Shown piece by piece: positions 1 to 16,684 of a stretch of DNA of 21,396 bases. Location of the stretch: positions 1 through 21,396 of the IMG/VR virus record IMGVR_UViG_3300003690_000095, one strand, 5' to 3'. The notes under the pieces are model-generated. The model had not been told where the DNA came from and did no database searches. It was given only the letters and a program-made list of their open reading frames with translations. Source of the stretch: a virus. How positions within the stretch are numbered: the stretch's first letter is position 1; each line of letters opens with the position of its first letter. A program made the translations under genes and the position numbers.

Positions 1-1605
1 GCCCTTGAAGTCGAAGCCGCCGACAACACCGGAACCTGTCAGCGCAGCAGCACTTGTAGTGCCCATCAAGGCTTCTCCAAAACCGCGCAGAGTCCCCACA
101 ACCGGCGTGATGTTGACGCCCGATGTCGTCCATGCCGACAGCGTATCCCTCAACATATTAGCGATCATGAAGCCGGGGTCCTTGGTAACCAACTCTCTTA
201 ACAATCGAGCAGGCAATGCTTGAAGCCCAAGGAACGGCATGTCTATGTCATTGGTCATAACCAGGGAATTGATCAGCATCCTGTCGCCAACCCAGTACCA
301 CTTGGTTACCCCGTTGACGCGAATGCCTAGCGTGTTTGCCTGCGGCCCAGTCGTATCATCCGGCGCTGCGTCTTCGGGGATTGGACGCGCCATGCTGTCG
401 CCCATTAGGCGAAGGTCCCTGATACCACGGCTGACTGCCACGTTCAGCATGGAGGAAGTGATAGCGCTGGATGCGTTCATCAGCATGTTGCTGATGGGAT
501 CGCGAATCCTCTGGGTGCTGGCCGTGATGTACACCCGTCGGCCAGTTTCCCTGTTTAGGTCTTGAAGTTCTTCAAGCCTATTTTTTAGCGCTTGGCTATC
601 GCGGTCGATATATGCCCTGCTGTCGGCAACATCCCCAACCATCAGCCGGTAGACAGGCTTGCCACCCTTCAGTTCCTTGGGCTGCTTGAGGTTCTGGAAG
701 CTGGGGAAGAACTTGTTGTTGTTGTTGTCGAGGCTTTCAAACAAGGTCTTTCTTAGAGGAACGTCCTTCGCACCAGCGCCTTCCCCCTCCGGGGAAAGCA
801 CCTGATAGGCAACCCCTTCGTCAGCATAGAACTCCCGATAGAAGGGAAGGTAATCGGAGTTGGACTTCCATAGCTCGCCCATCTGTTCGGAGATGACGCC
901 CGACTTGACCATCAGATTGACTATGGAATTGTTCCATAGCTGATACTTCTGATGTGCCAGCCTGATCTCAGGGTGCTGCACTCCTAGTTCCAAGCCAATT
1001 TCAATGTCCCTCTCGGTAAACATCCTCTCTCGGCCTTCGCTCTTCAGCCTTCTGGCTCTCACTGCCCCTGCATAGGCGGCGAACTGCTCCAGCAGGCCAA
1101 GGTTGTTCACCTCCTGAAGGATTTGCACCAGACCTTCCGGCGAACCCCACTTGCCTGTCTCTCCGATTTGGTCAATCCTTACGTTCTCACCCGTTACCAC
1201 ATCTCTGTAAGCAGTGTCAGAAGCTAACTGGCGATATTCCCTCCGGTACTCTTCTGCTGTTCCTGGATCAATGCTATCTAGCACCTTCAGATTTATGACA
1301 TGGAAGAACCCACGGTCATATATTACGAAACCTTCTTTTAATGCAGCAGACATGATGCCGGTAGCTCTGGTGAACTGAGCAAACGCCGCAGCGGTTGAGG
1401 ATTCGGCAGTGATCTTGTCGATCAGGCCCTTCTTCAGGGTCAGCTTCTCGGCTGCTGTCCATGCTTCATATCTATCTACAACCCAGTAACGGAAACGACT
1501 GCCGATATGTTCCTCGGAGTTGAGGCCCATCCCGCGCATGACCTTCTCAAAGAAGGTCTCGTTAGGTCCGCTTTCGAAGTGACGGTCGTAGAAGTCCCGC
1601 TGTTC
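1..1605 (-). other. LPD38-like region of the giant protein (residues about 2090-2624, incomplete)
   Basis: The region has GVISEQMGELWKSNSDYLPF then YRE, later DPISNMLMN, WYWVGDRML, LPARLLRELVTKDPGFMIAN and MLRDTLSAW. The run from (Y/L)LPFYRE to PxFxxxNxxRD is what I know as the large polyvalent protein-associated domain 38. It is mainly helical, of unknown function, and normally stands near the C-terminus of such proteins. It continues beyond the left edge. Confidence 0.6.
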
Positions 1606-4600
1606 GGACGATTGATAGTTCTCACGGCTGCGTCGGCGTACGCTGTACTGCTCTCTCAGCGCAGGCGATACCCGCTCGTTGGGCTTGGCTTCTCCCGCTG
1701 CCCGCTTTGCCATGACACTGGCACCGGGGTTGACCTGCGGCAGAACTCTGGGCTTGATCGCTCCCATCTCCGCAGGCAGAGCAAAGGCCGTGGTCAGGCT
1801 GAAGAATGATTGGTCTATCAGGTTGGGATATTTGTCTATAAGTTTCTTGAAGCGATCAAAGGACGCCTCTTTGAAAACAAGTGTGAATGGGTACGGCCAA
1901 TCGGAATAAGGATCATTCCAACGCAGAACAACATGGTTTCCGCTTTCACGCAGATCAAAGTTGGCAGCTTCTGGGGTGTTGCGGGAATTTTGATAGGCGC
2001 TGAGAGTGCCATCAACAAAAGACTCTACCGAATCAAACGGCGTATTCTGCTGGATGTCAGTCAGGTGTTCCTTGGCGTGACGAAGGCCGAAGCCGTTATG
2101 GCCTTGCTTCAGATCGTCCCATTCATTATGTCCACGCTGGATAATGACCCGATGACTCTTGCCCTCCCAAGCCAACGGAGTGGGGGAGTGGAAGACAGGA
2201 TTGATCGCCCCTTCTTGGAGCCTCTCTCTGTAATCTCCTGTCCGGACATCACCGGATCGCAGCGCAGCCCTGATGCGCTTGGCTTCTTCAAAAGTGGGGG
2301 CGGCTGCTCTTTCTCTCTTTAGATATTCCCGCTCGCGGGCCGCTCTGCTCTCAACGGGAGGTCCAAGTCTTCCGCCACGCCTTACGGCATAGAGAAGTTC
2401 GGGACGCTCCACCATGTCCTCGGCAACATTCTCGGTCCAGACCCATGACGGCATCAATCCTGTTTTCTGATCAGCATAAACAGTATCTTCTTGCGAGGCT
2501 GTCCGATTGGTTTCCCCGTATGGGCCAAAGTTTAACCAAGAGTTTTGCCCCCGCGTCTCGGCTGTAACGGCTGGCAATGCATCTGCTGAATACAGTCGGC
2601 TATGAGCTTGCCAGGCGTTCTCTTCTCCGCGAGCCCTAAATCCAGCGCCCTCAATGCCGTGCCCAAAGAAGTCATGGACAGCCCTGAACACATCATTAGC
2701 TCGCATCGGAGTTCCATTGGCATCTACCTCTTGAGTAAACTCAAAGAGGGGGTTTGTCGCTGGATCAAGTGCAGCAGCAGCGTCAGAGCCGAAGCCAAAA
2801 TCTGTGGGATAAACCCAGATATGCTTGTTATTGGCCAAGTCCTCTAGGGCCATTCGCGGGATGTCGTAAGGCGCATCCATATCCTCGCGCATCATCTCAA
2901 TCGTGTAGCCCATCTCCTTTATCACCTGATACTGGGCCACCGTCTCATCAATCATGGCCCTGTACGCCCTCTGCACAGCAGGACCTAATGGATCATGCGC
3001 CATCTCGTCATATGCAGTCGCTATGCGTGCGGAAAATTCGGGATCAATGGGAGCGTATTGCGCCTGCCTAGCATACGGAATGCCTGCCCGCTCCGCATAG
3101 GTACGGGCTGCTTCTTCAATTTCAGGATTAAACCCAAAGGCCGCAGATTCTAGCCCTGGGAGAGGTTGTGCCTCCCGTTGCTCTGGCGATATACGCGCTT
3201 CGCCCAGGCCAACCGCTCTTCCTGGTCTATCTGCTCTGGGGTCTTCCCTTCGTCTTCGTCGTACAACGTAGAGTTCTCCGGGGGCAGCGGCCTCTCCTTC
3301 TCCATAAGTTTCTTGATATTCTTCGCGAAGCGCCGGGTCTCTTCCCGCGACATCACCTGCTGGTCTTCCGGCCCCTCGAACCCCGGCGAGTACCCCTTCA
3401 TCTCCAATGCCATCTCTAATCCTCCGGAATGCTTGAGCGTAATCTGTATTGAGCCTCTGGCCACCAGCCGCGCCCAGTTTTTCCCACAAACTCTTTTCGG
3501 GATACCACAGCGTGGCCTGTAAATCAGCGATGGTCATGTCAGGATATCCTGACGCCTTCACCCTATCAAGAACTTTATTGGCAATACGTCTTGTTGCCTC
3601 TCGGAACCCACCACTTGACGGGGCGTCCTTGGGCTTTGTCTGCTGCGTGACAATAGCCTGCGCCACCTTGGCCCACTCAGGCTTCACATATTTCTGCTTC
3701 AGCCTTCTTGCTTCACGGAATGCCCTTTCGTGTTCCAACCGGAGATCATTAGCCAGATCAATAATGGCTATCTCGTCTAGGGATTCCGCCTCCATAATCT
3801 CAACGAGCTTGGAAATCTCAAAGTTTTTCCCAGTCTCCAAAAGACTCTTGTAAAGACGGTCAGTTTGCTGACCTAGAAGAGCAGGGTTGCCAATGATATT
3901 CCCTGACATGCGGCCCATCGTCCGCATCAGCCACATATCTATGGTGAGGGGATCATAATTACCGGTCAGGTTCTGATAGAATCCCTGGCCAATCTTGGCC
4001 CCCAGCATGTACGACCCATTCACCACGGTGCCTGCGTTCTCCGCCGTACTCACAGGGAAGCCCATCTGCCTTAACTGTCTTACCGTGAAGGATTTGTTAA
4101 AGAGGTCCCGTGTTCCCGCTATCCCAAGGTCTTCAATCAGATCATTAAGAATCTCAAAGTTTTTCCTCATCGACGGGGCGGCCTCTCCCCACCCCTTGTC
4201 TGGGAAACGTCCGTCTCTTTGATAATCTCTGTACACTTCTTCGGTGAACCGGGCATTGCTCAGGACCGGCGTCTTCTGGCTGGTTACGGCCAGCGACACT
4301 AGAAAAATGAAACGATTATCAATGTCCGTAGCTATCTCAGGATGAATTTCTGCCGCCACCTCCATGGCATCGGCAACCTTGGCGGTATACCAGTTGGCAG
4401 CATTGCCGGTCTGTTGCAGCGCCCGTAGTGCTTCCGCCGCAAGCGCATCTGAAATCAAACCATCCTTTGACTGGTCAGTAACTATATCAACAGGAGACTT
4501 GAGAATACGAAGCGCCCTGCGCTGTAGCCTCTGTGCTACCTCGCCAATATTAGCCCCTGTTTCAGGGGGAAGCTCTTCGTTGTATGTGAGATCAAGCGCC

Positions 4601-7600
4601 GACAGCGCTCTTGCACGCTTCGATAGCGCCTTGTCGGCAACGACAATGTCATCGTTGATAGCGGACTGAATAGTGTTGATCGGATCGCGGGGTCTCACCG
4701 CTCTTGAGACACGCCGCACTGCAAAGAGTTCGGCGGCCCGCTCCACAAAGGTTTCGACGGGGGCATCGGGCCGAGCCTGTCCCGTCGCCCTTGCTGACGC
4801 CTCTGCCCGCGCCTGCTCTTCTGCGGTCACCCCTGGAGCAGGAGCGACGACATCAGCCTGTGGGTCTTCTCTTAGACCAACAAATACTTGACCGACGTTC
4901 TGGATATCCAAGTTGGAGAAGGCACCGCGCAGTGCATGGAAGAAGTCAGCGATGCGCTGGAGCAGGTCGCGGGGGGCGCCAGAGATCGCTCTTAATTTAC
5001 CGTTAATATAGGCATCTCCTGTGCGCCCGAAATCGCCAAAGGCATTGGCGATTGCCTCTTCGACAAAATAATCCTCTGCCGTCTCTAGGGGCAAGCCCAG
5101 AGCCTCAGCGCGTTTCCGATAGTCCTCCTTCGCCTCTTGATAATAAGTTAAGTTCCTTGCTGGACCCGCTTTCTTGGCAAAGTTTGTGAGTATTCTCCAG
5201 TCGGCATCACTGAATACCCCTGCTTCCCTCAAGGCATGAATAGTTTCGTGGTCGAGAACCTGCACCAAGTCCTTCAGCACTTTTTCTTTTGTCGCCGTCG
5301 GCTCGATTACATCCAGAGAGAGGGCTATGAGCATCTTGTCCGCATTAAATTTGCCCAGGTCCTGACCGGCTCCGCCATCCAATGTGCGCACAAATTCTAG
5401 CGCAACTTCGTTGCGGTCCTTCAGCCCCTTCACCCCCTTCAGGCGATTGGCTAAAAGCGCTTGAAGTTTATCCACGCCGCCAAACATCTCGGCACGCATG
5501 TCCGTTTTAACAGTTGCCCGGTCAATCCTTGCCTTGAACTCAGCGCTGGCCTGGACCAACGACATGGGCGTGCCATCGGTTTCTGCCCGCCGTATCTTGA
5601 TGCCCTCCCCAACAAACGGGGCAGTTGGTTCGGCAGCGGCTGCAACCCGCGCCTCTTGCTCTATCAGTTCACCGCGCTCAAGAGGGGCAAGCGCTTCTAT
5701 ATCTTCCTCTCTGATACGACCCCTGAGAGGACCCCTCGGGCCACCCTCTACCTGTCTGGTGATGGTGTATTCAGAAGGCCGCCGGTATTTATCGGTGGCT
5801 ATATAGGCTCCCTTGACCCGTGTCGAAGGGACAAGATCGCCGCGCTTCACGCCCTCTCTGATAATGCTTTCGCTAAGACCACCGCGAATGCCAAGGCTCT
5901 TGTTGATATCGGATTTTAGGATTTCCCCTTCTTCCAAGGGGCGCTTTCTGGGAGTGCCATCATCCTTAACTAACCTAGCAGGCATCAGCCTTGCGGTGTT
6001 GATGGCCGTGGCATACTGCTGTGCATCAAATTCCGGTTCACTAATGGTCGGAAGAGAGCGCAGTTCACCTGCCGGGAAGGAAGGAAGCTCCTCTATCGCC
6101 GTCTCCAGCATTCCCAACTGGGCATTGCCCATCGCTTTAATATTTACTGTTCCCGTTTTCCTTCGGGCAAATCTATCGAAGCCATCCCCCTTGCTTCTGA
6201 ACCCCTTCTCTTGAAGGCGTGACAGAAGCCCCACTCTTTCAGCATCACCGAATGTCCTTGGTGTTTCCGGCAGTAGCTTCTCTATTCTTGCGCTTCCAAG
6301 ACCATGATCAGCAAGATCAGATACGGTTAAAAAATCATCCTCGGCAAACGGCTGTCTTCGGGTGTTAATTCTTTTGCTGTTGATCCGCACCGCTTCATCA
6401 TCAGTAAGCTCATCAAATGCAATAGCGGGAGACCTGATCGTTACCCGAGCCGCCTCCAGAAGAGTTCCTCGATCCTCTTCCGCCGCAGCCATAACCGACC
6501 CCTGTGCGAGAGCCTCCGTCTCTATGCTATCCTGGCGTTTAAGAATTTCCGGAACCCTGAAGGTAAGCTCAGAGCGCACGATCTCTGCCTGTCGCCGTGT
6601 AGATAGATAGGGAGAGACACGAACACCGGCCTTGCTCTGGACAAAGAGACGGCCTCTCTCGTCCTGTTCCACCTCATATACATCCGGATTTCCATCCGCG
6701 TCGGTTGTTATGACCCCCCTGTTAAAGGAGAGAACAAGGTCACCGCCAAGGTCATCAACTATTTTCTCGGCAATCATTGCACCGTCTTCTTCCGGCGCAG
6801 CCATCGTCTCGCTTTCAGGGCGTAAGTCCTCAAGCAGAAGAACCGGAGCGGGAGCAGGAAGGGCAAGCACAGGCTCTTCCACCGGAGCGGCTTCAGCCGC
6901 TGCTTGTTCTTTTGAAATCCGCCTCGTTCTCGGCAGCGCAAGCGAAAGCACTCCATGGAGAACGCCAGCGGCTCCAGCCCCATAGCCGAAGTTCTCTGCT
7001 GCCGATTCAGTTATGTCCAGATCGGGATCATAAAACCCTTTAGCAATTGCATTCTGAGCAATCTGAGCAGCCGCCTCTTGCGCACCTTCAGCACCTGCCG
7101 CAATGAATGTTTGCACCCATTTGTTCACTAGGGCTTTGGGGGCCTCTTTTTTGATTGCCTTCAAAAGCAATCCTACAGGCCAGCGCAGAGAGAATACCTC
7201 GGAGGTGCCAGTCGCATAGCCGCTGAGAATGGAGAGCCTGCGGTCTATTTCATCAACGTCACCCAGCTTATCGCCAAGCGCCAGTAAACGATCCGCCTGT
7301 TCAGCCCCACCACCACCAGCGCCCATAGCAACGGCGGGGCCGTACTTAACAGCAAGAGGAGCGGCTCGGGCTAGAAGAGATGCGCCAGCGGCGGCTCCAG
7401 CCCCAATGCCTAGAACTGGGGCCGCCAGACCGGCGGCGACTGTCGTTCCGACAAAGGCAAGCATAGACCCCAACGCAGAACCAAACTTATAGGGCACCGT
7501 ACTCGGATCACCGCCGAACCATTCCTGTATATCTCGTTCTGTCTGGGAGAGATCGGTGGCAAACTCACCCTCAATGTCAGCGCCCAAGACAACGCCCGTG

Positions 7601-7872
7601 CCCCTGAAGGCAGAGACCGGCATCATCAAGAAGGAGGACCCTATCCCCGCCATGAGATCACTGGCGCCTTCGTAGGCGTCTTCTATCCAGCTTGTTTCTT
7701 CTTCGGGTTCTGGCGGGGCTTCGGGAGCTTCGGTAAGCGGAACCCCGAGAGTTGAGTAGAACTCGTTTCGGTCGCGATCAGAATAATACTTCTGATACAG
7801 GGCTTCCGCGAGATCGGCGTCAGACCAAGTATTATATTGAGGGTACTGCTGCCTAAATTCACCAAGCTGCAT
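1..7872 (-). CDS. Giant multidomain virion protein (T7 gp16 position, large polyvalent protein type), C-terminus beyond the left edge
   Basis: I read all 2624 codons from the ATG at 7870-7872 and found no stop; an in-frame TAA two codons upstream fixes the start. No strong ribosome site is seen, so coupling to the gene ending at 7884 is likely. Order: residues 5-44, phage motif YPQYNTWSDADLAEALYQKY; 45-59, Pro/Glu linker; 126-190, Gly/Ala hydrophobic stretch; 260-283, helix EGAQEAAAQIAQNAIAKGFY; 320-345, Ala/Pro linker; 640-705, possible winged helix; 785-985, HETIH metallopeptidase-like domain; 1085-1420, helical domain; 1585-1820, HDFFGH domain; 1897-2015, PBECR-like domain; 2090-2624, LPD38-like region. 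(F/Y)xVRR motifs mark the borders at 1050, 1535, 1828 and 2076. I recognise no lytic transglycosylase motif such as T7 gp16 has. Ejection into the host is inferred from the context. Confidence 0.85.
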   Translation of the reverse strand, partial: MQLGEFRQQYPQYNTWSDADLAEALYQKYYSDRDRNEFYSTLGVPLTEAPEAPPEPEEETSWIEDAYEGASDLMAGIGSSFLMMPVSAFRGTGVVLGADIEGEFATDLSQTERDIQEWFGGDPSTVPYKFGSALGSMLAFVGTTVAAGLAAPVLGIGAGAAAGASLLARAAPLAVKYGPAVAMGAGGGGAEQADRLLALGDKLGDVDEIDRRLSILSGYATGTSEVFSLRWPVGLLLKAIKKEAPKALVNKWVQTFIAAGAEGAQEAAAQIAQNAIAKGFYDPDLDITESAAENFGYGAGAAGVLHGVLSLALPRTRRISKEQAAAEAAPVEEPVLALPAPAPVLLLEDLRPESETMAAPEEDGAMIAEKIVDDLGGDLVLSFNRGVITTDADGNPDVYEVEQDERGRLFVQSKAGVRVSPYLSTRRQAEIVRSELTFRVPEILKRQDSIETEALAQGSVMAAAEEDRGTLLEAARVTIRSPAIAFDELTDDEAVRINSKRINTRRQPFAEDDFLTVSDLADHGLGSARIEKLLPETPRTFGDAERVGLLSRLQEKGFRSKGDGFDRFARRKTGTVNIKAMGNAQLGMLETAIEELPSFPAGELRSLPTISEPEFDAQQYATAINTARLMPARLVKDDGTPRKRPLEEGEILKSDINKSLGIRGGLSESIIREGVKRGDLVPSTRVKGAYIATDKYRRPSEYTITRQVEGGPRGPLRGRIREEDIEALAPLERGELIEQEARVAAAAEPTAPFVGEGIKIRRAETDGTPMSLVQASAEFKARIDRATVKTDMRAEMFGGVDKLQALLANRLKGVKGLKDRNEVALEFVRTLDGGAGQDLGKFNADKMLIALSLDVIEPTATKEKVLKDLVQVLDHETIHALREAGVFSDADWRILTNFAKKAGPARNLTYYQEAKEDYRKRAEALGLPLETAEDYFVEEAIANAFGDFGRTGDAYINGKLRAISGAPRDLLQRIADFFHALRGAFSNLDIQNVGQVFVGLREDPQADVVAPAPGVTAEEQARAEASARATGQARPDAPVETFVERAAELFAVRRVSRAVRPRDPINTIQSAINDDIVVADKALSKRARALSALDLTYNEELPPETGANIGEVAQRLQRRALRILKSPVDIVTDQSKDGLISDALAAEALRALQQTGNAANWYTAKVADAMEVAAEIHPEIATDIDNRFIFLVSLAVTSQKTPVLSNARFTEEVYRDYQRDGRFPDKGWGEAAPSMRKNFEILNDLIEDLGIAGTRDLFNKSFTVRQLRQMGFPVSTAENAGTVVNGSYMLGAKIGQGFYQNLTGNYDPLTIDMWLMRTMGRMSGNIIGNPALLGQQTDRLYKSLLETGKNFEISKLVEIMEAESLDEIAIIDLANDLRLEHERAFREARRLKQKYVKPEWAKVAQAIVTQQTKPKDAPSSGGFREATRRIANKVLDRVKASGYPDMTIADLQATLWYPEKSLWEKLGAAGGQRLNTDYAQAFRRIRDGIGDEGVLAGVRGAGRPAGDVAGRDPALREEYQETYGEGEAAAPGELYVVRRRRREDPRADRPGRAVGLGEARISPEQREAQPLPGLESAAFGFNPEIEEAARTYAERAGIPYARQAQYAPIDPEFSARIATAYDEMAHDPLGPAVQRAYRAMIDETVAQYQVIKEMGYTIEMMREDMDAPYDIPRMALEDLANNKHIWVYPTDFGFGSDAAAALDPATNPLFEFTQEVDANGTPMRANDVFRAVHDFFGHGIEGAGFRARGEENAWQAHSRLYSADALPAVTAETRGQNSWLNFGPYGETNRTASQEDTVYADQKTGLMPSWVWTENVAEDMVERPELLYAVRRGGRLGPPVESRAAREREYLKRERAAAPTFEEAKRIRAALRSGDVRTGDYRERLQEGAINPVFHSPTPLAWEGKSHRVIIQRGHNEWDDLKQGHNGFGLRHAKEHLTDIQQNTPFDSVESFVDGTLSAYQNSRNTPEAANFDLRESGNHVVLRWNDPYSDWPYPFTLVFKEASFDRFKKLIDKYPNLIDQSFFSLTTAFALPAEMGAIKPRVLPQVNPGASVMAKRAAGEAKPNERVSPALREQYSVRRRSRENYQSSEQRDFYDRHFESGPNETFFEKVMRGMGLNSEEHIGSRFRYWVVDRYEAWTAAEKLTLKKGLIDKITAESSTAAAFAQFTRATGIMSAALKEGFVIYDRGFFHVINLKVLDSIDPGTAEEYRREYRQLASDTAYRDVVTGENVRIDQIGETGKWGSPEGLVQILQEVNNLGLLEQFAAYAGAVRARRLKSEGRERMFTERDIEIGLELGVQHPEIRLAHQKYQLWNNSIVNLMVKSGVISEQMGELWKSNSDYLPFYREFYADEGVAYQVLSPEGEGAGAKDVPLRKTLFESLDNNNNKFFPSFQNLKQPKELKGGKPVYRLMVGDVADSRAYIDRDSQALKNRLEELQDLNRETGRRVYITASTQRIRDPISNMLMNASSAITSSMLNVAVSRGIRDLRLMGDSMARPIPEDAAPDDTTGPQANTLGIRVNGVTKWYWVGDRMLINSLVMTNDIDMPFLGLQALPARLLRELVTKDPGFMIANMLRDTLSAWTTSGVNITPVVGTLRGFGEALMGTTSAAALTGSGVVGGFDFKG
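1828..2184 (-). other. PBECR-like nuclease domain of the giant protein (residues about 1897-2015)
   Basis: Core elements in order: GFGLRHAKEH at 1927-1936, DSVESFVDGTL at 1947-1957, HVVLRW at 1980-1985, and YPFTLVFKEASFDRFKKL around 1994-2011. This helix-then-four-strand pattern with G.GL.H....H matches phage Barnase/EndoU/ColicinE5-D/RelE-like (PBECR) domains of polyvalent proteins. H1932 and H1936 are candidate catalytic residues. Moderate confidence; the strands are divergent. Confidence 0.5.
2413..3120 (-). other. HDFFGH domain of the giant protein (residues about 1585-1820)
   Basis: Residues 1725-1790 read DVFRAVHDFFGHGIEGAGFR, then ARGEENAWQAHSRLYS, AETRGQNSWLNFGPYG. H1733, D1734, H1738, E1750, E1751, H1757 and E1772 form a dense set of potential metal ligands. 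The upstream part (APIDPEFSARIATAYDEMAH, MALEDLANNKHIWVYPTDF) is also conserved-looking. I recognise the block from other phage giant proteins but know no function for it. Confidence 0.55.
3613..4620 (-). other. Helical domain with GAKIGQGFYQNLTGN motif (residues about 1085-1420)
   Basis: The region contains ALQQTGNAANWYTAKVADAM, LVSLAVTSQKTPVLSN, a further conserved stretch, then LGAKIGQGFYQNLTGN at 1290-1305 and PLTIDMWLMRTMGR at 1308-1321. This order recurs in phage giant proteins. The K-G-F..NL.G....TID.W pattern reminds me of helix-hairpin-helix DNA glycosylase-like folds, but I cannot assign a Pfam family with confidence. Confidence 0.5.
4918..5520 (-). other. Metallopeptidase-like domain of the giant protein (residues about 785-985)
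   Basis: VLDHETIHALREAG places an HExxH motif at H875, E876, H879, preceded by a helix. Downstream, YFVEEAIANAFGDF has E938 and E939, about 60 residues away, suitable as the third ligand of a gluzincin-type zinc peptidase. The domain ends with RDLLQRIADFFHALRGAF, a helix that commonly follows this peptidase in phage polyvalent proteins. All key residues are present, so activity is plausible. Substrate unknown. Confidence 0.7.
7303..7497 (-). other. Gly/Ala-rich hydrophobic stretch of the giant protein (residues 126-190)
   Basis: Residues about 131-165 are almost without charge (FGSALGSMLAFVGTTVAAGL, then AAPVLGIGAGAAAGASLL), and 178-190 are again small and nonpolar. This could insert in the inner membrane or pack as a glycine zipper, as expected for an ejected protein that must reach the cytoplasm. 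Confidence 0.6.
7741..7860 (-). other. N-terminal phage motif of the giant protein (residues 5-44)
   Basis: The segment FRQQYPQYNTWSDADLAEAL followed by YQKYYSDRDRNEFYSTLGV fits a short motif (YPxYxxxSDxxLAxAxxxKYYSD) that I know at the N-termini of many unrelated phage virion enzymes and polyvalent proteins. It probably serves as a common packaging or recruitment signal, which is an inference. Confidence 0.7.
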
Positions 7873-7883
7873 GGCTTAACCCG

Positions 7884-10571
7884 CTACTCAGGCTGAGGCT
7901 TAGGAAGATTAAGAGGGTTTCCGCTTTGGCCCGCACCAGCCGTGCCATATGCCTGAGCTATCCACTCAGGCATTCCTGGAGTCACATACCTACGCTCGCG
8001 AGCCATCTGTGCCGCATAATATCTCTTCGCGGCTGGAACCAATTGAGCCCGGACCTTATCAAAATCCGTTGCCCCAGTTGGCGGTGTCACACCAATAGAC
8101 TTCGCAATAGCCGCCCACTCAAGAGAGTTTCCTCTCGTCCACGAACCCCCAAGTGCCCCCACACTTGCCGTAACATCTTTTTGAAAGGCTATTTTTAACC
8201 GATCAAAAGCTTGAGCATTTGCCGTTTGAGCCGCCCCATACCCAGTACTCTTTAGCCTATTAACCTCGGATATAAAGGCTGGCATGTTTGGATGAACCTT
8301 GCCTTGAGAATCTCGGTAGAAAAATTTATCAAGTTCTGTACGATCCCCAGCCTTAGCCTTGGCTAGAGCGCCTGGATACATCCTTTCCGGCAACAATGTG
8401 AGCAGCCTTGTTGTTTCGCCGGGCTTCATTGCGGCTGCCATTGAAGCATCTGCTGTCAACAGGCCAGTCTCTCCCCGTATTAAATTAAGCTGATGGGTTC
8501 TTGCGTCCTGCTTCGCCTGCTGGGCAATCTTCAATTGCTCCATAGCCAAGTCTGCATTCCCGCGATTCTGTTGCACTGCAAATTCTGTCATGGCGATGGA
8601 CTCTTGCCGCCGTGCATTACGCATGGCCATCTTGCTGTCAATGATACCCTTGCTTGCAGTTAGCCTAGCAGCCAACCCCTTTGCATATTCATCTCTTGCC
8701 GCCTTATCGACAATCTGAAAGCCCTCAAGTCCATCCTTGAATCCGCTATATAAATCCGGACTTCCAAGGAGACCCTTGGACATCTCCAGCATAAGATTTG
8801 TTAAGCGGTCTCGACGCATTCTTTCCGGCAGCTTGCCAGTCTCATAGAAATCATCCAGCGCCTGAAACCGCGTCTCCAGTTTCTCAAAATCCTTGGCGTC
8901 TGCTGTTCTAAATTCCTTCAGCCCGGTCTCCAGGTCGGTAAAAATCTGTTTGTTGGCATCAGTGAGGGTCTTGAAAAACTCATTAGCTTGCCCTGTTACG
9001 TCCGGAAGCTCTTCCTTTTCCAGGGCCGTCAGCCTGCCTCTAAGTGCTGCGCTGATTCTCTGGAAGCTACCCTCATCCCCTCCACCTACAAGGGCCTTGT
9101 CAGCCGTAACCGTTGGAGAAAAGTTCGTCGGCCAGTCGGCAAGCGGCTTGTCAGTTTCCGTGACAGTTTCAATGACCTTTTGTTCACCAGTGGGAGGCCT
9201 GCCTGTGATGAAATCGGGGTCCATCCCCACGGGGATAGGGAGGGGCACTCTGCCGGGGACATCGCCAGGAGGAGGCCTTTGGCTGCGCAGACCCGGCAAG
9301 CCCTGTGTGGATAAGTTGTACATAAACCCACGGGGGTCTTTCTCGAATTGAGCAAACAATTCTGGATTGCTCTCCAGTGCGGGACGCAGTTCTAGAACCT
9401 TATTTAGAAGATCAATTTCCGCCTTACGCTCCACCATAGGCTGAGAAACATAGCCTCCTATAGACCTGGCAAGCGCTACAGGGCCTTGGATATCTCCAAA
9501 GAACGATGCAATAATCTCATCAAATCTACGTCCGACATCTTCTTGCTCTTCAGCCCCTTCCTCCCCCACCCGCCGTTTCTCCACACTGCGCCTTGTTTGA
9601 GCAGCTTGCAGTGCCAGACTCTCCTTAAGTGCTGTTGCCCGTGACTCATCGGCAAGCTGCTGTGCCCTTTTCTTTTGTGCCGCAGCTTCCCAGGAGGCTC
9701 TTTGAGCATACTGGAGCGTGGTCTGACCACTCGTATCAGGAACTGGAGGGTCTACTCCAACAACACCACCATTGGCTGGTACATTGTCGCCAGGAAGCAG
9801 CCCACCAATCAAAGACATGAGTCCTGGGCCTTTTTGGGTCCGCCGCTGCCACTCATCCAGGCTTTCCTCCCGTCGCCCTTCCTGTGCATACCCTTCCTGT
9901 GCATAAACCGTGCGCCCCTGCGTACCATTGGCAGCCATGGCTGCCGGTCTGGCTGCGGCTACCATGCGGCCACGCCCTCCCGGTAGACGACTATCTTCTG
10001 GAGAGATATCAAAGCCGCGATAGGCACGTTCCGGCTCATTCTGTTCATTCTGTTGCCGAATGAAGGAAGCAATCACGGCCGCCAGCGCAGGGGGGATTAC
10101 GGGACCAGCCCGTTTACGAGCAGAAAATGGCAGACCCGACCTCTTATCCTCTGCCCTAAGAGCTTTAACTATTTCACCTATGGCAGCACGGCTCGATCCT
10201 TCCTGCATATTAACAGTGGGCAATTGAGGCGCAGGCCGCCCCGTGGCTCCTGACAGAGCCATGGCAAGCTGTGCTTCCCGGGGCATCGGAGGCTGTTGGG
10301 GAGGCGCTGCCATAGCACCGGCCTGTGACATAGGAATCGGCTGCTGTCTGCCAGCCAAACGATGCGCCACGGTCGGAGCCTGTTGCGCCGTCTTAGTAGC
10401 CGCCTCTCTGCCCGCAAATTCCTTTGCCATTTCTTCACGGCGCTTCAACTCAGCCGCAACCAGAAAAAGAGGAGCTTGAGCAGAGGGCTGCCGCATCATT
10501 TGCTGAAGAGCTTCCGTGGGGAGGCCCTTCAGATCATTTTCTTGTTCAAGTATTGACGGGCCAATAGCCAT
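7884..10571 (-). CDS. Large helical internal virion protein (T7 gp15 position)
   Basis: 895 residues. The N-terminus has LKGLPTEALQQMMRQPSA, PLFLVAAELKRREEMAKEFA, a conserved start of marine podovirus internal proteins. Residues 65-125 are Pro/Gln/Met-rich. Residues 223-232 are a tandem YAQEGYAQEG, and 250-260 a short hydrophobic GLMSLIGGLLPG. Residues 285-345 are strongly helical and charged, likely coiled coil. Residues 430-500 are a Pro-rich linker. Residues 500-705 are again long helices (FFKTLTDANKQIFTDLETG..., RNARRQESIAMTEFAVQQNR). The rest ends in Pro-rich KPQPE. No catalytic motif seen. GGGAG lies eight bases before the ATG. The stop is eleven bases before the giant gene. Long-helix composition and order fit T7 gp15, which forms the periplasmic conduit; that function is inferred. 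Confidence 0.8.
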   Translation of the reverse strand: MAIGPSILEQENDLKGLPTEALQQMMRQPSAQAPLFLVAAELKRREEMAKEFAGREAATKTAQQAPTVAHRLAGRQQPIPMSQAGAMAAPPQQPPMPREAQLAMALSGATGRPAPQLPTVNMQEGSSRAAIGEIVKALRAEDKRSGLPFSARKRAGPVIPPALAAVIASFIRQQNEQNEPERAYRGFDISPEDSRLPGGRGRMVAAARPAAMAANGTQGRTVYAQEGYAQEGRREESLDEWQRRTQKGPGLMSLIGGLLPGDNVPANGGVVGVDPPVPDTSGQTTLQYAQRASWEAAAQKKRAQQLADESRATALKESLALQAAQTRRSVEKRRVGEEGAEEQEDVGRRFDEIIASFFGDIQGPVALARSIGGYVSQPMVERKAEIDLLNKVLELRPALESNPELFAQFEKDPRGFMYNLSTQGLPGLRSQRPPPGDVPGRVPLPIPVGMDPDFITGRPPTGEQKVIETVTETDKPLADWPTNFSPTVTADKALVGGGDEGSFQRISAALRGRLTALEKEELPDVTGQANEFFKTLTDANKQIFTDLETGLKEFRTADAKDFEKLETRFQALDDFYETGKLPERMRRDRLTNLMLEMSKGLLGSPDLYSGFKDGLEGFQIVDKAARDEYAKGLAARLTASKGIIDSKMAMRNARRQESIAMTEFAVQQNRGNADLAMEQLKIAQQAKQDARTHQLNLIRGETGLLTADASMAAAMKPGETTRLLTLLPERMYPGALAKAKAGDRTELDKFFYRDSQGKVHPNMPAFISEVNRLKSTGYGAAQTANAQAFDRLKIAFQKDVTASVGALGGSWTRGNSLEWAAIAKSIGVTPPTGATDFDKVRAQLVPAAKRYYAAQMARERRYVTPGMPEWIAQAYGTAGAGQSGNPLNLPKPQPE
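9876..9905 (-). repeat. Perfect 15-bp tandem duplication
   Basis: cccttcctgtgcata occurs twice head to tail. In frame it gives YAQEG twice in the 895-residue protein. An identical duplication of this size looks recent. Confidence 0.9.
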
Positions 10572-10583
10572 TGCTCTGCTCCC

Positions 10584-11672
10584 TTATGCCTGCCCAAAGA
10601 TGTTTTGGGCCAGACCAAGACCGCCCAATCCATAACCAAGTAGTTGCTGTCCAGCACCGGGAGGTCTCTGGTACATGGAAGTTTCAGATTGCGGACTGAC
10701 AGGCACGCCATGCATGATGCCACTCAACCAGCCTAGCTGCTGTCGTGGGAAATCTCTCTCCGAGAGGAAATCGGCATAACCAATATCCAAAAACTGCTGC
10801 TCCTGCCCCCGCCGTTCCGCACCTACCTGACGCAAGACATCCGCTCCTAGCAAGGCAGTTCTCTGCTCTTCCGCGCCAAGCGTGGCGAGTGCCTGAGCAG
10901 ACCTGAGACCAAGCTCTTCACCAGTAATCCCCAACTTACCTGCCTGTTGAGCCGCTCGGTCAGCAAGCTCTGCTCTCGTTATCCCTAATTTGGCCGCCAG
11001 TTGCGCCGACGCATCGGCAAGCTGCTGTTCTTTCAAGCGCCTTTCCGCATCGGTCGCAAAGGCTCCTTGAGCCTGCTGGAATGCTGCTGCCCGTAACCGA
11101 GATTCCTGATCCAGTAAGCCCTGGTCAAGACGCTCCCGCGCCAACCCCTCCTGAAGCTGTGCCCGCGAACCGCCAAAGGCACCCCTCTGTACGGCCTGTG
11201 CCCGCAAGCGAGGAAGTACATCTTCACCGAACCTCTGCTCTTCTCTTCTCCTCTGTGTAGCAATGACATTTTCTATGAATGGATTCATGTACTGGGCGGC
11301 TACCCCAGGATCGACAAAAGTACCTGTCTCAAAAGTCCCCGGTACATACTGGCTTCCCGCAGCCAGATCGCGCCTGACCTGACTTGCGTCATAGGGCTGA
11401 TCATAAGCAGCAACATTTGCCGCTCTTAAAGTGCCAAGCTGCAATGCCTGGGGAACGCCAGCGGCCCCGATCTGTGTGGCCACGTTGAAACTTTGCAGTT
11501 CTTCAGGAGAAAACGTAGTGAGTCGCTGACCGGGGAAAGTCTCGTAAGGACGACGAGATTCGGCCTCCGTGCGCTCAATAAGGCCAGTATAGAATGGCTC
11601 CGCATATTCAGGGAGGCTGGTTGAAATGCTCGTCGTTTTGGTCGGCTGTTGAGTGCCACCACCTTTACCCAT
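10584..11672 (-). CDS. Internal virion protein B-like (T7 gp14 position) helical protein
   Basis: 362 residues from MGKGGGTQQPTK. I prefer this ATG because GAGGAG lies seven bases upstream and the overlap with the GNAT gene is only eight bases; an ATG at 11747 would add 25 Arg-rich residues that look like read-through of the GNAT gene. After LPEYAEPFYTGLIERTEAE come YETFPGQRLTTFSPEE and YMNPFIENVIATQRRREEQR, then RLRAQAVQRGAFGGSRAQL, a signature I recognise strongly in marine phage clusters. The middle is a long Ala/Gln/Arg helix with two copies of KLGIT..EL..R.AQ. The C-terminus has FLDIGYADFLSERDFPRQQL, then GWLSGIMHGVPV. Role as an ejected internal virion protein is inferred from order and composition. 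Confidence 0.8.
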   Translation of the reverse strand: MGKGGGTQQPTKTTSISTSLPEYAEPFYTGLIERTEAESRRPYETFPGQRLTTFSPEELQSFNVATQIGAAGVPQALQLGTLRAANVAAYDQPYDASQVRRDLAAGSQYVPGTFETGTFVDPGVAAQYMNPFIENVIATQRRREEQRFGEDVLPRLRAQAVQRGAFGGSRAQLQEGLARERLDQGLLDQESRLRAAAFQQAQGAFATDAERRLKEQQLADASAQLAAKLGITRAELADRAAQQAGKLGITGEELGLRSAQALATLGAEEQRTALLGADVLRQVGAERRGQEQQFLDIGYADFLSERDFPRQQLGWLSGIMHGVPVSPQSETSMYQRPPGAGQQLLGYGLGGLGLAQNIFGQA

Positions 11673-12096
11673 CGCCATTCTCCTCGAACATCTTTTCATA
11701 CACCATGTATTCCGGCGTCCACCCATGCGGCCCAAGAACTCTCTCAAATCCCTTGCGGCCAGTCATTTCCATGCCATCACAATTATTATCCACTGCCCAT
11801 CTTTCAAACGTCTCCAGCATTTGGCCACGCCAGCGCATTATTTTCTCTCCACCCAAGAACTGACCGGCCAATAATAACTTGCCTGGATATGCAACAAACC
11901 TCGTCGTCAAGGCGCTTGTCACTTTCTTATCGTCATCAAAGACAAGCCACAGATGCTGCTCGCCGCTCAGTATCTCCTGTTCAATATGATCCATTGAATA
12001 ACGGCCATGAGCAGTGCCTATCGCCTTGCCTAAAATAGGGGAAACCTCATCCCAGATCAGGTGCAGATAGTCGGGATCAACTAAGGAAACCTCCAT
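11665..12096 (-). CDS. GNAT-fold virion protein in the position of T7 gp13 (internal virion protein A-like)
   Basis: 143 residues. The N-terminal part (DYLHLIWDEVSPILGKAIG) is followed by a strand pair LWLVFDDDKKVTSALTTRFV. Then comes a helix RWRGQMLETFERWAVDNNCD and the segment MEMTGRKGFERVLGPHGWTP ending MVYEKMF. The GR.G..R.L...G(W/F) pattern after a helix with a C-D turn is what phage GNAT-like proteins show around the acetyl-CoA binding helix. T7 gp13 has similar length (138 residues), the same kind of fold and the same place just before gp14. I infer an assembly role and doubt true acetyltransferase activity, since no clear Q/RxxGxG/A loop is seen. Start ATG overlaps the stop of the upstream gene (TAATG). 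Confidence 0.75.
   Translation of the reverse strand: MEVSLVDPDYLHLIWDEVSPILGKAIGTAHGRYSMDHIEQEILSGEQHLWLVFDDDKKVTSALTTRFVAYPGKLLLAGQFLGGEKIMRWRGQMLETFERWAVDNNCDGMEMTGRKGFERVLGPHGWTPEYMVYEKMFEENGDG
11680..11685 (-). promoter_or_regulatory. Ribosome binding site that decides the start of the gp14-like gene
   Basis: The minus strand reads GAGGAG seven bases before the ATG at 11672. The ATG at 11678 would be only one base away, too close. This supports the shorter 362-residue product. Confidence 0.7.
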
Positions 12097-14513
12097 TACC
12101 CTACCGCTCGCCGCAACATCCTCTCTTCTTCTCCGCGAAGCATTGCACCGTTCTCTGGCGTGGGTGGCAACCCCGCGACCTGTGCCCGTCGAACAAGGCT
12201 GGCGGCTGGTTCGATGTATTCATTCTCACCCACACGCAGATTGGCGGTCTCCTCACCCGTCACCGGGTCCACGATCTTCCCGGCAATCACATCAGGACCC
12301 TGAACTTCGCCATCAACAACCGTGGTCTCACCACTGACCGTTTCAACAGTGCCCCCATTCTCCCTGTCGCCGCGCAGCATTTCCTGAAGCATGTGCAGGG
12401 CCTCTGGCCCGAACACTTCCAAGAACTCATCAATTGCACGTTGCGCAACTTCAGGCTCAAGCTCGTTCTGAAGGGCCATAACGGCACGGTCATAGATCGC
12501 CCGCTCCCTGGGGTTCTGTGGCTCTTCAATCGCCCGCTCCCGCAAGCGAACCTCCACATCATCCTGCACCTCAACCGGAGCGCCCTGCATTATGCCCGTC
12601 GTTGCCGCGACCCCGGCAGGTATCTCCAGTGCCATCCCAGCGGCTATATCCTCTTCGATAGTCATGCCATCTGTTCCCTCTTGCGCATAGTAGCTAAACT
12701 GCGGATTAACTCCTGGGACATAAGAAGCTGGAGACGGCATAGGCGGCAAAAAGGCATAAGGAGAATAGGCCGTTGGCGGCGCCGCTTGCTCAGGAAGCTG
12801 TGCCATATCCTCTGGATACGCATCCTCAACAAAAGAACGAGTTCCTAACTCCCGATCCACGCCCAGAGGGATATCGACCTGGGAGCTATCGACCTGGGGG
12901 CTATCGACCTTCGGATGCAAACCGCCAAAATCGTATCCGGGGTCGTCCCCAAGGAGGTTCTTTGCAGCTATTTGCGCACCCGAAGTAAGCAAGCCGAGAG
13001 GCCCACCGAACACCAGACTGGCGACAGGGCCAACAACATTTTTGGCTGCATCCGCAAAGTCGGCGAGCGAAACTACAGGCCCTCTTGGAACTTCAAAACG
13101 CTCTGGGACGCCTGCGGTCTCGGCGGCGCCAGACAGAACCGGACCTGACGTAACTTGCCCCATTAAACTCGGACCATCCACCTGACCCGCACCCCCCCCA
13201 TTTCCCGCCACGCTACCCGCACCTTCCATTGCAGCACCAAGGCCATGACGCCCTGTATCTACATCTCTGGCACGTGCAGAGATTGTGCCGTCTTGTGCAT
13301 AAATGGTCGGCAGACCACCATGCACGGTCTTCCCGCGTGTGCCGCCCCTGGCAAATGCTATTTGATCTTCATCGAACCAAGGGAGTTGCGGATCAACGCC
13401 GGGGGTATAGCCGAGAGGAGGCCGCCTGGCGAACCTCTGCTCTGTGGAGCGCGGCCCCCCATATTTGTAAGTAGGAGGCCTGTCAGGAAACTCGTATTCT
13501 TCTTCCGGCAACCAGGCAGGAACACCGGCTAGAGCCGCCATGGCTGGAGTGGCCAGATCGCCCAAACCTAAGCGTCCCGGCGCAGTAGGCTCCCAGGCCA
13601 TATCAATCTGCCCCAGACCTCCTTTCATATACCCCAGCTTCTCTGGGAAGCCTGCCTCCTCGTATGCGATGGCGGCCTGTGCCGGTTTAAGAGCAGGATC
13701 AAATTTGCCAGCAAGAGCCGACTGCATCTGCCCAGTAGTGTACTGCGGCATACCCGACAACGGGACCGGAGGGCCTGCATCAGGGGTAAATATAGGGGGT
13801 GGTCCTGCTGGACCAAGTGGAATCCCTGCCGGTGCCCCAAACTGCGTCTTAACACCCCCCATAAACTCCAAGTAGTTTGTGCTGTCGATACCACCCGTTC
13901 CGAGGAAGGTCTGCGTTGGCCCCGTAAGATTTACCCATGGCTTTATCGCACCAGATGGCATGAATACTTCTGCTGCAAGCTCAGAGGGAGGAGCCCCCGC
14001 AACCCCTTGAAGCCCTGCGACTCCGGGCTGACCGGCAGCCTGCGCCCCCGCGCCACCAATCGCGCCCGCTAACTCGCCCATGCCCGCTGTACCTATCGCA
14101 GCGAGGATGCCCCTGCCGAGCTTTGTTGACGCATCGCCTTCGGTAACGGCTGCTGTCGTAGCGCCGGAAAGGGCAGCCGCAGCCCAAGGCGACAAGGCGC
14201 CCCCGCTCATTATTCCTGCCCCAATGCTAACAATGGCTGGCAAAAGGCTTTTGAGATTGAACATCTCAGGCAGACCGGTGTCGGGATTGATGGTGACGCC
14301 GTTCTGGGTGAGGGATGCGAGGCCAGCGACTTCTTCCGGTGCCATATGAACCAGCATCGAGTCGCCGTATCGGCCACGATCCGCAAGAAGATCAGGGGAA
14401 TATGGAGCATTGTAATTGACAGGTTCCGTCACCGGCTGCCTACCTGACACCCCTGATAGTTGCCTAGCCCTAACCAGATCAGCCATCGCTCTTGTTTCTG
14501 CACTTGCTGGCAT
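12096..14513 (-). CDS. Large Gly/Pro-rich virion protein with hydrophobic segments, probably internal or ejected
   Basis: 805 residues, no enzyme motif. The N-terminal region has SMLVHMAPEEVAGLASLTQN and TINPDTGLPEMFNLKSLLPA, a pairing I know from marine podovirus internal-virion candidates. Residues about 90-165 are Gly/Ala-rich and hydrophobic (IVSIGAGIMSGGAL..., ILAAIGTAGMGELAGAIGG), resembling a glycine zipper; a second such stretch lies near 495-525 (GPVASLVFGGPLGLLTSGAQ). Long Pro/Gly linkers carry Y.PGV(D/N)PQ twice and YAQ(D/E)G near residues 405 and 608. Residues about 630-720 are acidic and helical; the C-terminus has NLRVGENEYIEPA, like a degraded form of the phage GEFVIPA motif. 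GAGG lies seven bases before the ATG; the stop overlaps the next start by one base. Membrane insertion during ejection is an inference. Confidence 0.75.
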   Translation of the reverse strand: MPASAETRAMADLVRARQLSGVSGRQPVTEPVNYNAPYSPDLLADRGRYGDSMLVHMAPEEVAGLASLTQNGVTINPDTGLPEMFNLKSLLPAIVSIGAGIMSGGALSPWAAAALSGATTAAVTEGDASTKLGRGILAAIGTAGMGELAGAIGGAGAQAAGQPGVAGLQGVAGAPPSELAAEVFMPSGAIKPWVNLTGPTQTFLGTGGIDSTNYLEFMGGVKTQFGAPAGIPLGPAGPPPIFTPDAGPPVPLSGMPQYTTGQMQSALAGKFDPALKPAQAAIAYEEAGFPEKLGYMKGGLGQIDMAWEPTAPGRLGLGDLATPAMAALAGVPAWLPEEEYEFPDRPPTYKYGGPRSTEQRFARRPPLGYTPGVDPQLPWFDEDQIAFARGGTRGKTVHGGLPTIYAQDGTISARARDVDTGRHGLGAAMEGAGSVAGNGGGAGQVDGPSLMGQVTSGPVLSGAAETAGVPERFEVPRGPVVSLADFADAAKNVVGPVASLVFGGPLGLLTSGAQIAAKNLLGDDPGYDFGGLHPKVDSPQVDSSQVDIPLGVDRELGTRSFVEDAYPEDMAQLPEQAAPPTAYSPYAFLPPMPSPASYVPGVNPQFSYYAQEGTDGMTIEEDIAAGMALEIPAGVAATTGIMQGAPVEVQDDVEVRLRERAIEEPQNPRERAIYDRAVMALQNELEPEVAQRAIDEFLEVFGPEALHMLQEMLRGDRENGGTVETVSGETTVVDGEVQGPDVIAGKIVDPVTGEETANLRVGENEYIEPAASLVRRAQVAGLPPTPENGAMLRGEEERMLRRAVG
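12873..12914 (-). repeat. 15-bp direct repeat, two and a half to three copies
   Basis: The plus strand shows atcgacctgggagct, then atcgacctgggggct, then atcgaccttcgg in direct succession. It lies in frame inside the 805-residue protein and encodes a repeating pentapeptide (SPQVD, SSQVD). A short coding microsatellite likely to vary in copy number. Confidence 0.85.
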
Positions 14514-14821: not shown

Positions 14822-16684
14822 TTACTTCCTGCCGTCTGGCCTGATATCAATGCGCGGCACCCCCAATTTCCACGCGATATTTGTGCCTGAACTTTCTACC
14901 CGGAAAGCCACCTGCCTACTTCGCACCCTGATAAAGGCCTCCTCCGTAAATTCCTGAACGTCCACCATCTTCGTGCCCGTAATCGTAGAAGTATCGGCAG
15001 TCCCGAAGGCGCTCCCAGGAAAGTTTCTAGGCTTGAAAGAGAAGGTCGCAGCAGGAGCCGGGTCGGTAGAGCCAAAGAAAGAAATGTCCGGAATGACCCT
15101 GCTTATAAACTGGAACCTGTCGCCCTCTCCAATCTCGAAATCCGCACTTTCCACATAGGCCGATATCCCAGAAGGAGAGGTCCCCTCCCCATCGTTTAAG
15201 CCAATTTCATGGTTATAAATTTTGTAGTCAGCAGAGTTCGCCCCTATAGGATAGTCTCTTGACGAGCTATCCAGCCACGCCGTTCTGGCCAGCGTCCCAA
15301 AATACCAGCACTTCTCGAATGAATTGTAGATCACATAGCGATCTATCTCAGTGGCATCGGCACTACAATAAAACCACACAATTTCGCCGTAATCCTTGAT
15401 TGTTCCAGCGTGTATCTTTTGCGCCTGCGCACGATTTATATCGCCAAAAACGTAATCCTTGACGGTAGACGGCAGCCCCTGCACGCGCCCGGTATAGACA
15501 AAGAAGTCCCGCAACCCCATCCAGTAGACTGCCCCGTCAAGAGAGGCCACTGCGTTCGGCCCTATGAGTGTTATGTTCCGCGAAAGAACATTATGGCCAA
15601 AGGTGAACGGCGGCCCAACAAAGCGCATGCTGAACAGCGCCTCCTCGGTCCACACCAGAATTTCCTGCCGCGTGTCATAAGCCCTGACGATCTGCGAACC
15701 ACTATTGAGCCGTAAATCTCCAGCGGTATTTGCCGTTGTCGGCGTCCAGTCAACCGCATTCTCCTGATCGGACCACCGGATAAGCAGCTTATCCTGTGTG
15801 CTTGAGCCTCTGTCATTGCAGCCGAAGGCAAGTACATGACGGTCGTTATTGCTGACCATAACCTGTGTCGCAACTGTCGGCGCATCGGACGCCCCCGATT
15901 CATCCGACAGCGCCCCGGCGCGTGTTGACAAACCATCTGAGGCATCCCAGTAATAAACGCCGCCGTTCCTTACGTTGAACACCAAGTCCTCGCCAAAATT
16001 GTCCGCATACCACAACCGCAATTCCATGACAAAAGGCGAACTTGTTGCCGCCGATCCCCATGTGCCGCGACTGTAAGTCCCCGCACCAAACCCAAAAAGC
16101 GGCACAGCCGTATCAAGCCCGACATTGATTTCATAGGCGGCGGTTACGGACCCGCCCCCACCAGCAGTCGAGCCAGACGATGCGCTTCCCGCCGTCTCGA
16201 CCTTATATGCATTGGCGCTGACAATTTCCGTGATCTGATGGGTGGTATTGATCTGAGCCGCCGTTACCCCATCCGTGGTGGTGGCACCGGCAAGGGTGAC
16301 AAAATCATTAAGGACAGCGCCGTGAGCAGTATCCGTAACGGTTATCTCACCGCTACCAGCATCACCTGTCGTAATGGGATTGGACCCCAGACTGGAAGTC
16401 TTCCGCAACGGCGTGATGTTGTTAAAGTCGCCTCCCTCTTCAATGTAGAATCTCTGGGAAGAGCCAATGGCCAAGTAGTCATTGGAATCCAACGTGATGA
16501 AGTTGAACAGCAACCTCATCTGACCGTCAGTAGTGTCGTCGCTGAACCTTTCCCAACCACCAATCTTTTGTGGAAGACCGGAGCGAAATCTGATCTTGTC
16601 GCAATCAAACCAATGACCGTCAGAAGCAAACCTGGTTTGGTCTCGAAAGACACCAGGCGGGAATATCAACTTCTGAAAAGGCAT
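14822..16684 (-). CDS. Tail nozzle protein (T7 gp12 / P22 gp10-like, tail tubular protein B)
   Basis: 620 residues. It opens with MPFQKLIFPPGVFRDQTRFA, then W-DCDKIRFRSGLPQKIGGW, the recognisable N-terminus of podovirus nozzle or DNA-stabilisation proteins (PGV..D.T, VRFR.G.P.K.GGW). Residues 105-190 look like a small inserted beta-domain (TDTAHGAVLNDFVTLAGATT, later AYKVETAG and a Gly/Ser run) that many marine phages carry in this protein. Residues 370-430 hold a beta-propeller signature: LIGPNAVASLDGAVYWMG, FFVYTGRVQGLP, YVFGDINRAQAQKIHAG. The C-terminus is beta-rich and ends in basic residues. The protein would form the distal tube through which DNA leaves the virion. Length is in the normal range. 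Confident family call. Confidence 0.88.
   Translation of the reverse strand: MPFQKLIFPPGVFRDQTRFASDGHWFDCDKIRFRSGLPQKIGGWERFSDDTTDGQMRLLFNFITLDSNDYLAIGSSQRFYIEEGGDFNNITPLRKTSSLGSNPITTGDAGSGEITVTDTAHGAVLNDFVTLAGATTTDGVTAAQINTTHQITEIVSANAYKVETAGSASSGSTAGGGGSVTAAYEINVGLDTAVPLFGFGAGTYSRGTWGSAATSSPFVMELRLWYADNFGEDLVFNVRNGGVYYWDASDGLSTRAGALSDESGASDAPTVATQVMVSNNDRHVLAFGCNDRGSSTQDKLLIRWSDQENAVDWTPTTANTAGDLRLNSGSQIVRAYDTRQEILVWTEEALFSMRFVGPPFTFGHNVLSRNITLIGPNAVASLDGAVYWMGLRDFFVYTGRVQGLPSTVKDYVFGDINRAQAQKIHAGTIKDYGEIVWFYCSADATEIDRYVIYNSFEKCWYFGTLARTAWLDSSSRDYPIGANSADYKIYNHEIGLNDGEGTSPSGISAYVESADFEIGEGDRFQFISRVIPDISFFGSTDPAPAATFSFKPRNFPGSAFGTADTSTITGTKMVDVQEFTEEAFIRVRSRQVAFRVESSGTNIAWKLGVPRIDIRPDGRK

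Follow-up and report, generated by a model that had tools for sequence, protein, structure and literature searches.

We analysed a window of DNA from a marine phage, the entire 21,396-base IMG/VR record, in which a giant gene encodes a chain of exchangeable modules separated by a recurrent short tag. In our judgement the product, a polyvalent protein with a full length of about 3,070 residues, is probably the final and largest member of the ejection set, with cassettes that can be exchanged and tags, here called separators, that are likely cleavage or recognition sites. We infer packaging and ejection because of gene order and family; the giant would probably be packaged and sent into the cell together with the DNA. 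A constant frame, consisting of the N-terminal part, the HExxH domain and the LPD38 block, would carry exchangeable effector cassettes, each of them starting at a separator that is uniform within one protein and different between lineages. The separators would most likely serve as recognition or cleavage sites, and a peptidase, which may be the giant's own HExxH domain, would use them to free the cassettes as separate proteins. The features of the window are listed in Table 1.

Table 1. Features of the window; residue numbers (aa) refer to the giant protein, P0001.
Feature	Position	Strand	Remarks
Giant open reading frame, 2,624 codons	1..7872	-	3' end cut by contig end
N-terminal motif, aa 4-53, FRQQYPQYNTWSDADLAEALYQKYYSD	7714..7863	-	weak phrog_10691 match
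Ala/Gly-rich hydrophobic stretch, about aa 128-190	7303..7491	-	read off translation
Zincin-like metallopeptidase-like domain, aa 752-1011	4840..5619	-	HETIH 875-879, EE 938-939
Separator 1, FAVRR, aa 1050-1054	4711..4725	-	end of peptidase part
Helical module, aa 1117-1488	3409..4524	-	divergent DUF7178-like; iterated HMM searches
Separator 2, YVVRR, aa 1535-1539	3256..3270	-	
HDFFGH module, aa 1571-1826	2395..3162	-	phrog_3170, E 1.2e-17
Separator 3, YAVRR, aa 1828-1832	2377..2391	-	
HNEWDD...GFGLRHAKEH module, aa 1882-2063	1684..2229	-	possibly BECR-like
Separator 4, YSVRR, aa 2076-2080	1633..1647	-	
Conserved C-terminal block, aa 2081-2624	1..1632	-	phrog_9854
895-aa gene directly upstream of giant	7884..10571	-	no family match
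DNA ejection protein, 387 aa	10584..11747	-	phrog_4287, E 9.4e-14
143-aa GNAT-like small protein	11665..12096	-	phrog_25629, E 1.7e-5; synteny with CRP-901 gp34
805-aa gene in ejection cluster	12096..14513	-	no family match
620-aa tail/stabilisation-type virion protein	14822..16684	-	phrog_3287, E 6e-70

Constant parts and exchangeable modules

Scans of the whole protein (2,624 residues) against Pfam, NCBIfam and the PDB gave no match. The N-terminal motif is the best stretch of a match to phrog_10691 (whole-protein E 1.5e-11), a family of 3,925 positions whose function is not known, and the hydrophobic stretch that follows is a possible membrane segment. The peptidase-like domain displays the zincin pattern of an HExxH motif followed by a later glutamate. 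An iterated search assembled 11 members of its family, all in giant phage proteins, and the residues H, E, H, E and E are invariant in 11/11; the region is also conserved with the related contig L002. The sole peptidase profile that responded was PF04450, weakly and under the cut-off (E 0.037), and the domain had no PDB match. The C-terminal block is kept in all relatives and in phages of Pelagibacter, Vibrio, Bacillus, Escherichia and cyanobacteria, and relatives show how it goes on outside the window, through Pfam LPD38 and as far as the stop. Most of the modules named in the initial annotation were located (the N-terminal motif, the hydrophobic stretch, HExxH at 875-879 and HDFFGH at 1733-1738), whereas the LPD38-like region does not lie in the window. 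Pfam LPD38 scores above cut-off in L002, L003 and L004, where it occupies, for example, residues 2391-2578 of L002, and the window ends at L002 residue 2245.

Between the peptidase-like domain and the C-terminal block, P0001 contains the helical, HDFFGH and HNEWDD modules. L002 has a DUF7178-containing module of about 700 residues that replaces the helical one, followed by HDFFGH and HNEWDD, while L004 combines the DUF7178-containing module with HNEWDD and is without HDFFGH. In L003 the helical and HNEWDD modules flank another module (phrog_17808) in place of HDFFGH, and L094, which is 34-51% identical to P0001, carries a helical module, a module of the L003 type and an HNEWDD-like module. We assign the helical module to the DUF7178 family (PF23802, found in L002 and L004) because iterated HMM searches from either side find the other (37 and 46 members); an hhalign comparison of the two gave 9%. 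The phrog_17808 module, at residues 504-680 of L003 and 1605-1771 of L094, is common to two distant relatives. The description of the giant as a modular, polyvalent-type protein with an embedded peptidase-like domain was borne out, and because relatives exchange whole modules, the modularity is stronger than could be seen from one sequence.

The giant belongs to the polyvalent type described by Iyer et al. (2017). Several unlike predicted activities are joined in one chain (peptidase-like, DUF7178-like, HDFFGH and HNEWDD modules plus the C-terminal block), recognised domains are represented by the HExxH/EE pattern and, beyond the window, by LPD38 in three relatives, and the gene lies among virion and late genes. 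The proteins described in that work (J Bacteriol, PMC5512222) are likewise very long and multidomain, are encoded in a late virion cluster, and likewise feature zincin-like metallopeptidases, LPD38, mosaic exchange and proposed processing by a peptidase. P1 DdrB/DarB and the N4 virion RNA polymerase, too, are polyvalent giants that are packaged in the virion and contain a zincin-like domain; their other domains differ from those found here. Polyvalent proteins and their mosaicism are already known, and the new feature is the repeated, lineage-specific tag. Neither such a tag nor the HDFFGH family was found described in the open-access papers and databases searched, and the words “linker” and “hydroxylase” are absent from the main text of Iyer et al. 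(PMC5512222).

Separators at the module joints

Every module starts at a tag of the form [YF][AVS]VRR. P0001 has four copies where 0.016 would be expected, and a count of four did not arise in any of 20,000 shuffles; the pattern was picked after inspection, yet it recurs in independent lineages. BLAST homology between relatives breaks at most about 7 residues from a separator in 8/8 tag-adjacent breaks (P0001/L002 at 1057 and 1534, P0001/L003 at 1540 and 1825, P0001/L091 at 1831, L002/L003 at 1451, and L002/L004 at 456 and 1163). L094 has no VRR tag at all and instead carries four copies of [YF]SL[AR]R (0.011 expected), each at a module joint. Since these are the same joints, the tag has changed together at every one of them. 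The codons of the four P0001 separators differ from each other, which argues for constraint on the protein and against copied DNA. A DNA-level recombination signal at the separators was not convincing, with only a short identity (GARCTCTAY) around some of them.

Repeated tags that differ from protein to protein are also seen in further giants with an HDFFGH domain, namely RYSPGR five times in L044, RYSP four times in L060, KLSVR three times in L078, TFSV four times in L077 and MFSR four times in L087. Among 65 non-redundant giants, an own tag was significant at p ≤ 0.02 in only 4 (1.3 expected) and at p < 0.05 in 10 (about 3 expected). The pattern [FYL]S[VILRP][RGK] occurs just downstream of the HDFFGH domain in 9/65 sequences, where 1.5 would be expected; the nine include sequences closely related to each other. 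A generic separator motif is in modest excess over all giants (84 vs 65.7 ± 8.2), and we therefore limit the claim to giants that each repeat a tag of their own. In a different giant, L056, a 13-residue phrase is repeated four times between modules (residues 118-763, KYNENHDARGQFS).

Could the separators be sites at which the chain is cut? They may be polyprotein cleavage signals, a role that the pattern fits without proving cleavage. Zincin domains have been proposed to cut polyvalent proteins, and the two packaged examples differ: P1 DdrB is cut before packaging, whereas the N4 virion RNA polymerase is packaged unprocessed in spite of its zincin-like domain (PMC5512222). The N4 case is compatible with a second reading, in which the polyvalent protein is ejected and works as a whole, its uncut separators being flexible linkers or recombination seams. 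That module borders coincide with tags would be expected here too, mosaic rearrangement of polyvalent proteins is known (up to 50 combinations in Helicobacter jhp1044, PMC5512222), and the short DNA identity around some tags points the same way. The embedded HExxH domain is, moreover, unsupported as the cutter, as own tags and HExxH do not co-occur across the 65 non-redundant giants (Fisher p 0.62). On the other hand, a simple seam needs shared DNA, yet the tag codons differ within one gene, and neutral linkers would not change in concert from VRR in P0001 to SL[AR]R in L094. We give an uncut chain a substantial but lower probability, and favor separators that are recognized or cleaved.

Gene neighborhood and integrity of the frame

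All genes of the window share one direction, in the order tail protein, 805-aa gene, GNAT-like gene, DNA ejection protein, 895-aa gene and giant. The 895-aa product is by its position likely a virion or ejection protein. The 143-aa product had no Pfam match, and the CRP-901 gene at its position carries a GNAT annotation. Relatives of the tail protein come from Pseudomonas phages in 97/124 records, and others from the Roseobacter phages CRP-901/902, the Pelagibacter phages HTVC023P/027P and Planktothrix phages (cyanophages). In published work on Sulfitobacter phage GT1, structural modules of this kind are assigned to podovirus lineages that resemble P22 and LUZ24 (PMC10386132). The relatives of the tail protein and the phrog_4287 match therefore indicate an ejection cluster of the P22/LUZ24 type and not the T7-like slot of the initial annotation, for which no gp14, gp15 or gp16 profile was matched. 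Judged by sequence relationship, the tail protein places the phage among the P22/LUZ24-type podoviruses.

The giant shares its position in the virion gene order with the ejection proteins of P22 and T7, and its N-terminal and hydrophobic parts fit such proteins. It is, however, far larger, and no lysozyme or transglycosylase family was matched; Pfam and PHROGs scans of the 2,624 residues gave neither the T7 gp16 transglycosylase nor gp16-type homology. In L003, a phage lysozyme gene follows that of the giant. Genes of 2,772 to 3,209 aa occupy comparable places in ctQRb9, DC33 and the Planktothrix phage Pag-Yong1. The 3,125-aa giant of Limnohabitans phage DC33 (PQ492659.1, L009) is homologous to that of ctQRb9, and DC33 does not have the tag of P0001; the record assigns the 39-kb genome to the Inoviridae, a classification that looks wrong.

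Its place at the end of the ejection cluster and the hydrophobic stretch near its N terminus would also suit a structural channel protein like T7 gp16, in which the middle domains are passive spacers without an effector role. Passive spacers are difficult to reconcile with middle modules that give way to unrelated ones in relatives and in which residues of catalytic type are preserved: the HExxH/EE residues of the peptidase-like family are fixed, and H, D, H and E of HDFFGH are almost invariant. In addition, the genes of CRP-901 at the position of the giant are much smaller. We consider a pure channel protein very doubtful.

The uninterrupted frame from 7872 to 1 was confirmed, with an ATG start, no stop in 2,624 codons and conservation in relatives; at base 1 it meets the end of the contig and is therefore still open. 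A random frame of the same composition would contain about 114.5 stops (log10 P of none = -50.9). The same protein is encoded in L002, L003 and L004 with 61-85% amino acid identity over homologous stretches. Over residues 2080-2624 the differences from L002 at the three codon positions are 0.114/0.079/0.284, thus mostly at position 3, as is also the case against L003 and L004, and this bias indicates a translated gene under purifying selection. The giant frame is a real gene. Its stop, which the initial annotation proposed to seek by extending the contig leftward, was found through the relatives L002, L003, L004, L005 and L091, about 449 residues past the end of the window. This end corresponds to residue 2245 of 2694 in L002; therefore about 449 residues are missing and the full protein would have about 3,070. 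An assembly chimaera or frameshift artefact fusing separate genes, a concern raised by the metagenomic origin and by a contig that stops inside the gene, is already largely refuted and merits hardly any credence, since the independent contigs L002, L003 and L094 run through the same module joints and the third-position bias extends all along the gene.

The HNEWDD and HDFFGH modules

The HNEWDD module is kept in L002-L005, L091 and L094, with conserved H1932, H1936, S1977 and T2028, and had no relatives in the annotated phage collection. H1932 and T2028 are invariant in 5/5, and the histidines in the GFGxxHxxxH stretch together with a conserved threonine near the end are shared by L094. Such histidines and a late threonine are also the pattern of BECR RNases, and the module is possibly BECR-like. 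With no match to any PBECR family profile in Pfam and a structure model of pLDDT 40, the PBECR-like domain of the initial annotation keeps the support of the residue pattern and not that of a profile or fold.

In the HDFFGH module, H1733, D1734, H1738, E1750, H1757 and E1772 are nearly invariant in an alignment of 65 copies. These residues form a metal-site-like pattern, and the domain is likely a metalloenzyme. An AlphaFold2 model (pLDDT 89.8, pTM 0.89) had no match among PDB folds; its strong matches in BFVD are phage proteins that are named at most for other domains. Pfam and NCBIfam gave no match to the module, and neither sequence nor fold offered evidence for the nuclease-like activity that had been ascribed to it. 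The family comprises at least 590 viral stretches and 95 stretches in bacterial or archaeal genomes; in the latter the domain is commonly encoded by a stand-alone gene of about 280-300 aa. The domain is also present in a 433-aa protein of Mycobacterium phage Pinkcreek (gp97, L010 4854-6155), annotated as hypothetical, and proteins of this type occur in 187 Mycobacterium phage records.

Three candidate relationships of this domain were rejected. Among weak Foldseek matches the aromatic amino-acid hydroxylases TPH2, PAH and TPH1 ranked 5th, 9th and 14th, but the likeness is confined to the motif H[DE]xxGH: hhalign aligned 9 columns of PF00351 only (20% probability), the folds do not match (TM 0.15; no VIA Z ≥ 2), and PF00351 (Biopterin_H) had no match in 50 phage records. 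The MATCAP/TMCP carboxypeptidases (PF08014) share an H-x4-H motif with HDFFGH, and 8/65 copies hit that profile in its N-terminal part, below cut-off (lowest E 6.9e-6). This partial match covers profile positions 5-86 of 365 and stops short of the active site; moreover, HDFFGH has D for the E of HExxxH, and hhalign gave 0.3%. Kinship with early proteins of Pseudomonas phages such as LKA1 ORF7 was not established (Foldseek E 0.12, hhalign 3%). LKA1 ORF7 (L191 3662-4228), which has weak fold similarity to HDFFGH and a FRAFHDLGH motif, lies within the initial 4.3 kb of its genome, and the gene is found in over 100 phage records, mostly of Pseudomonas.

In 12/24 genomes with a stand-alone HDFFGH copy, a gene of the S-adenosylhomocysteine hydrolase (AdoHcyase) type lies at most four genes away, and in 7 of those 12 it immediately precedes the copy on the same strand, the gap measuring -37 to +42 nt. 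In the Bacteroidota and the gamma- and alphaproteobacterial cases the neighbor matches only the NAD-binding part of AdoHcyase. Such AdoHcyase-like/HDFFGH pairs from Bacteroidota and gammaproteobacteria are found in L118, L123, L124, L125, L136, L139 and L141, where the pair sits at about 8.8-10.8 kb (for L139, 2.3-4.3 kb). Near the HDFFGH gene of Paraburkholderia and actinobacteria there are also genes that encode homocysteine S-methyltransferase, a Cys/Met PLP enzyme and a methyltransferase. L145, L148 and L154 have homocysteine S-methyltransferase, Cys/Met PLP enzyme and SAM methyltransferase genes downstream of the HDFFGH-family gene, and AdoHcyase is also present in the clusters of L145 and L148; the arrangement resembles an as yet undescribed cluster for the methyl cycle or for biosynthesis. 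The AdoHcyase-type neighbors suggest that the HDFFGH substrate is perhaps in the SAM/SAH cycle, which we offer as a lead and not as a result.

A bolder proposition, which we put forward tentatively and think unlikely as a whole, is that some giants are true polyproteins whose own joint tags change together with a processing enzyme, that their cassettes act as separate injected enzymes, and that HDFFGH is an undescribed metal-dependent enzyme, maybe acting on the SAM/SAH cycle. If true, HDFFGH on the SAM/SAH cycle might serve phages, for example, to blunt restriction-modification. HDFFGH is in any case a well-conserved likely metalloenzyme, widespread in viruses and present on bacterial chromosomes, with a clear lead from its genomic context. 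The cutting of polyvalent proteins into working units was proposed in 2017, when the cut sites were not known, and the tags described here are candidate sites. With a lineage-specific tag at each joint, such sites can be listed concretely, and cassette borders in other giants can be sought by a sequence rule.
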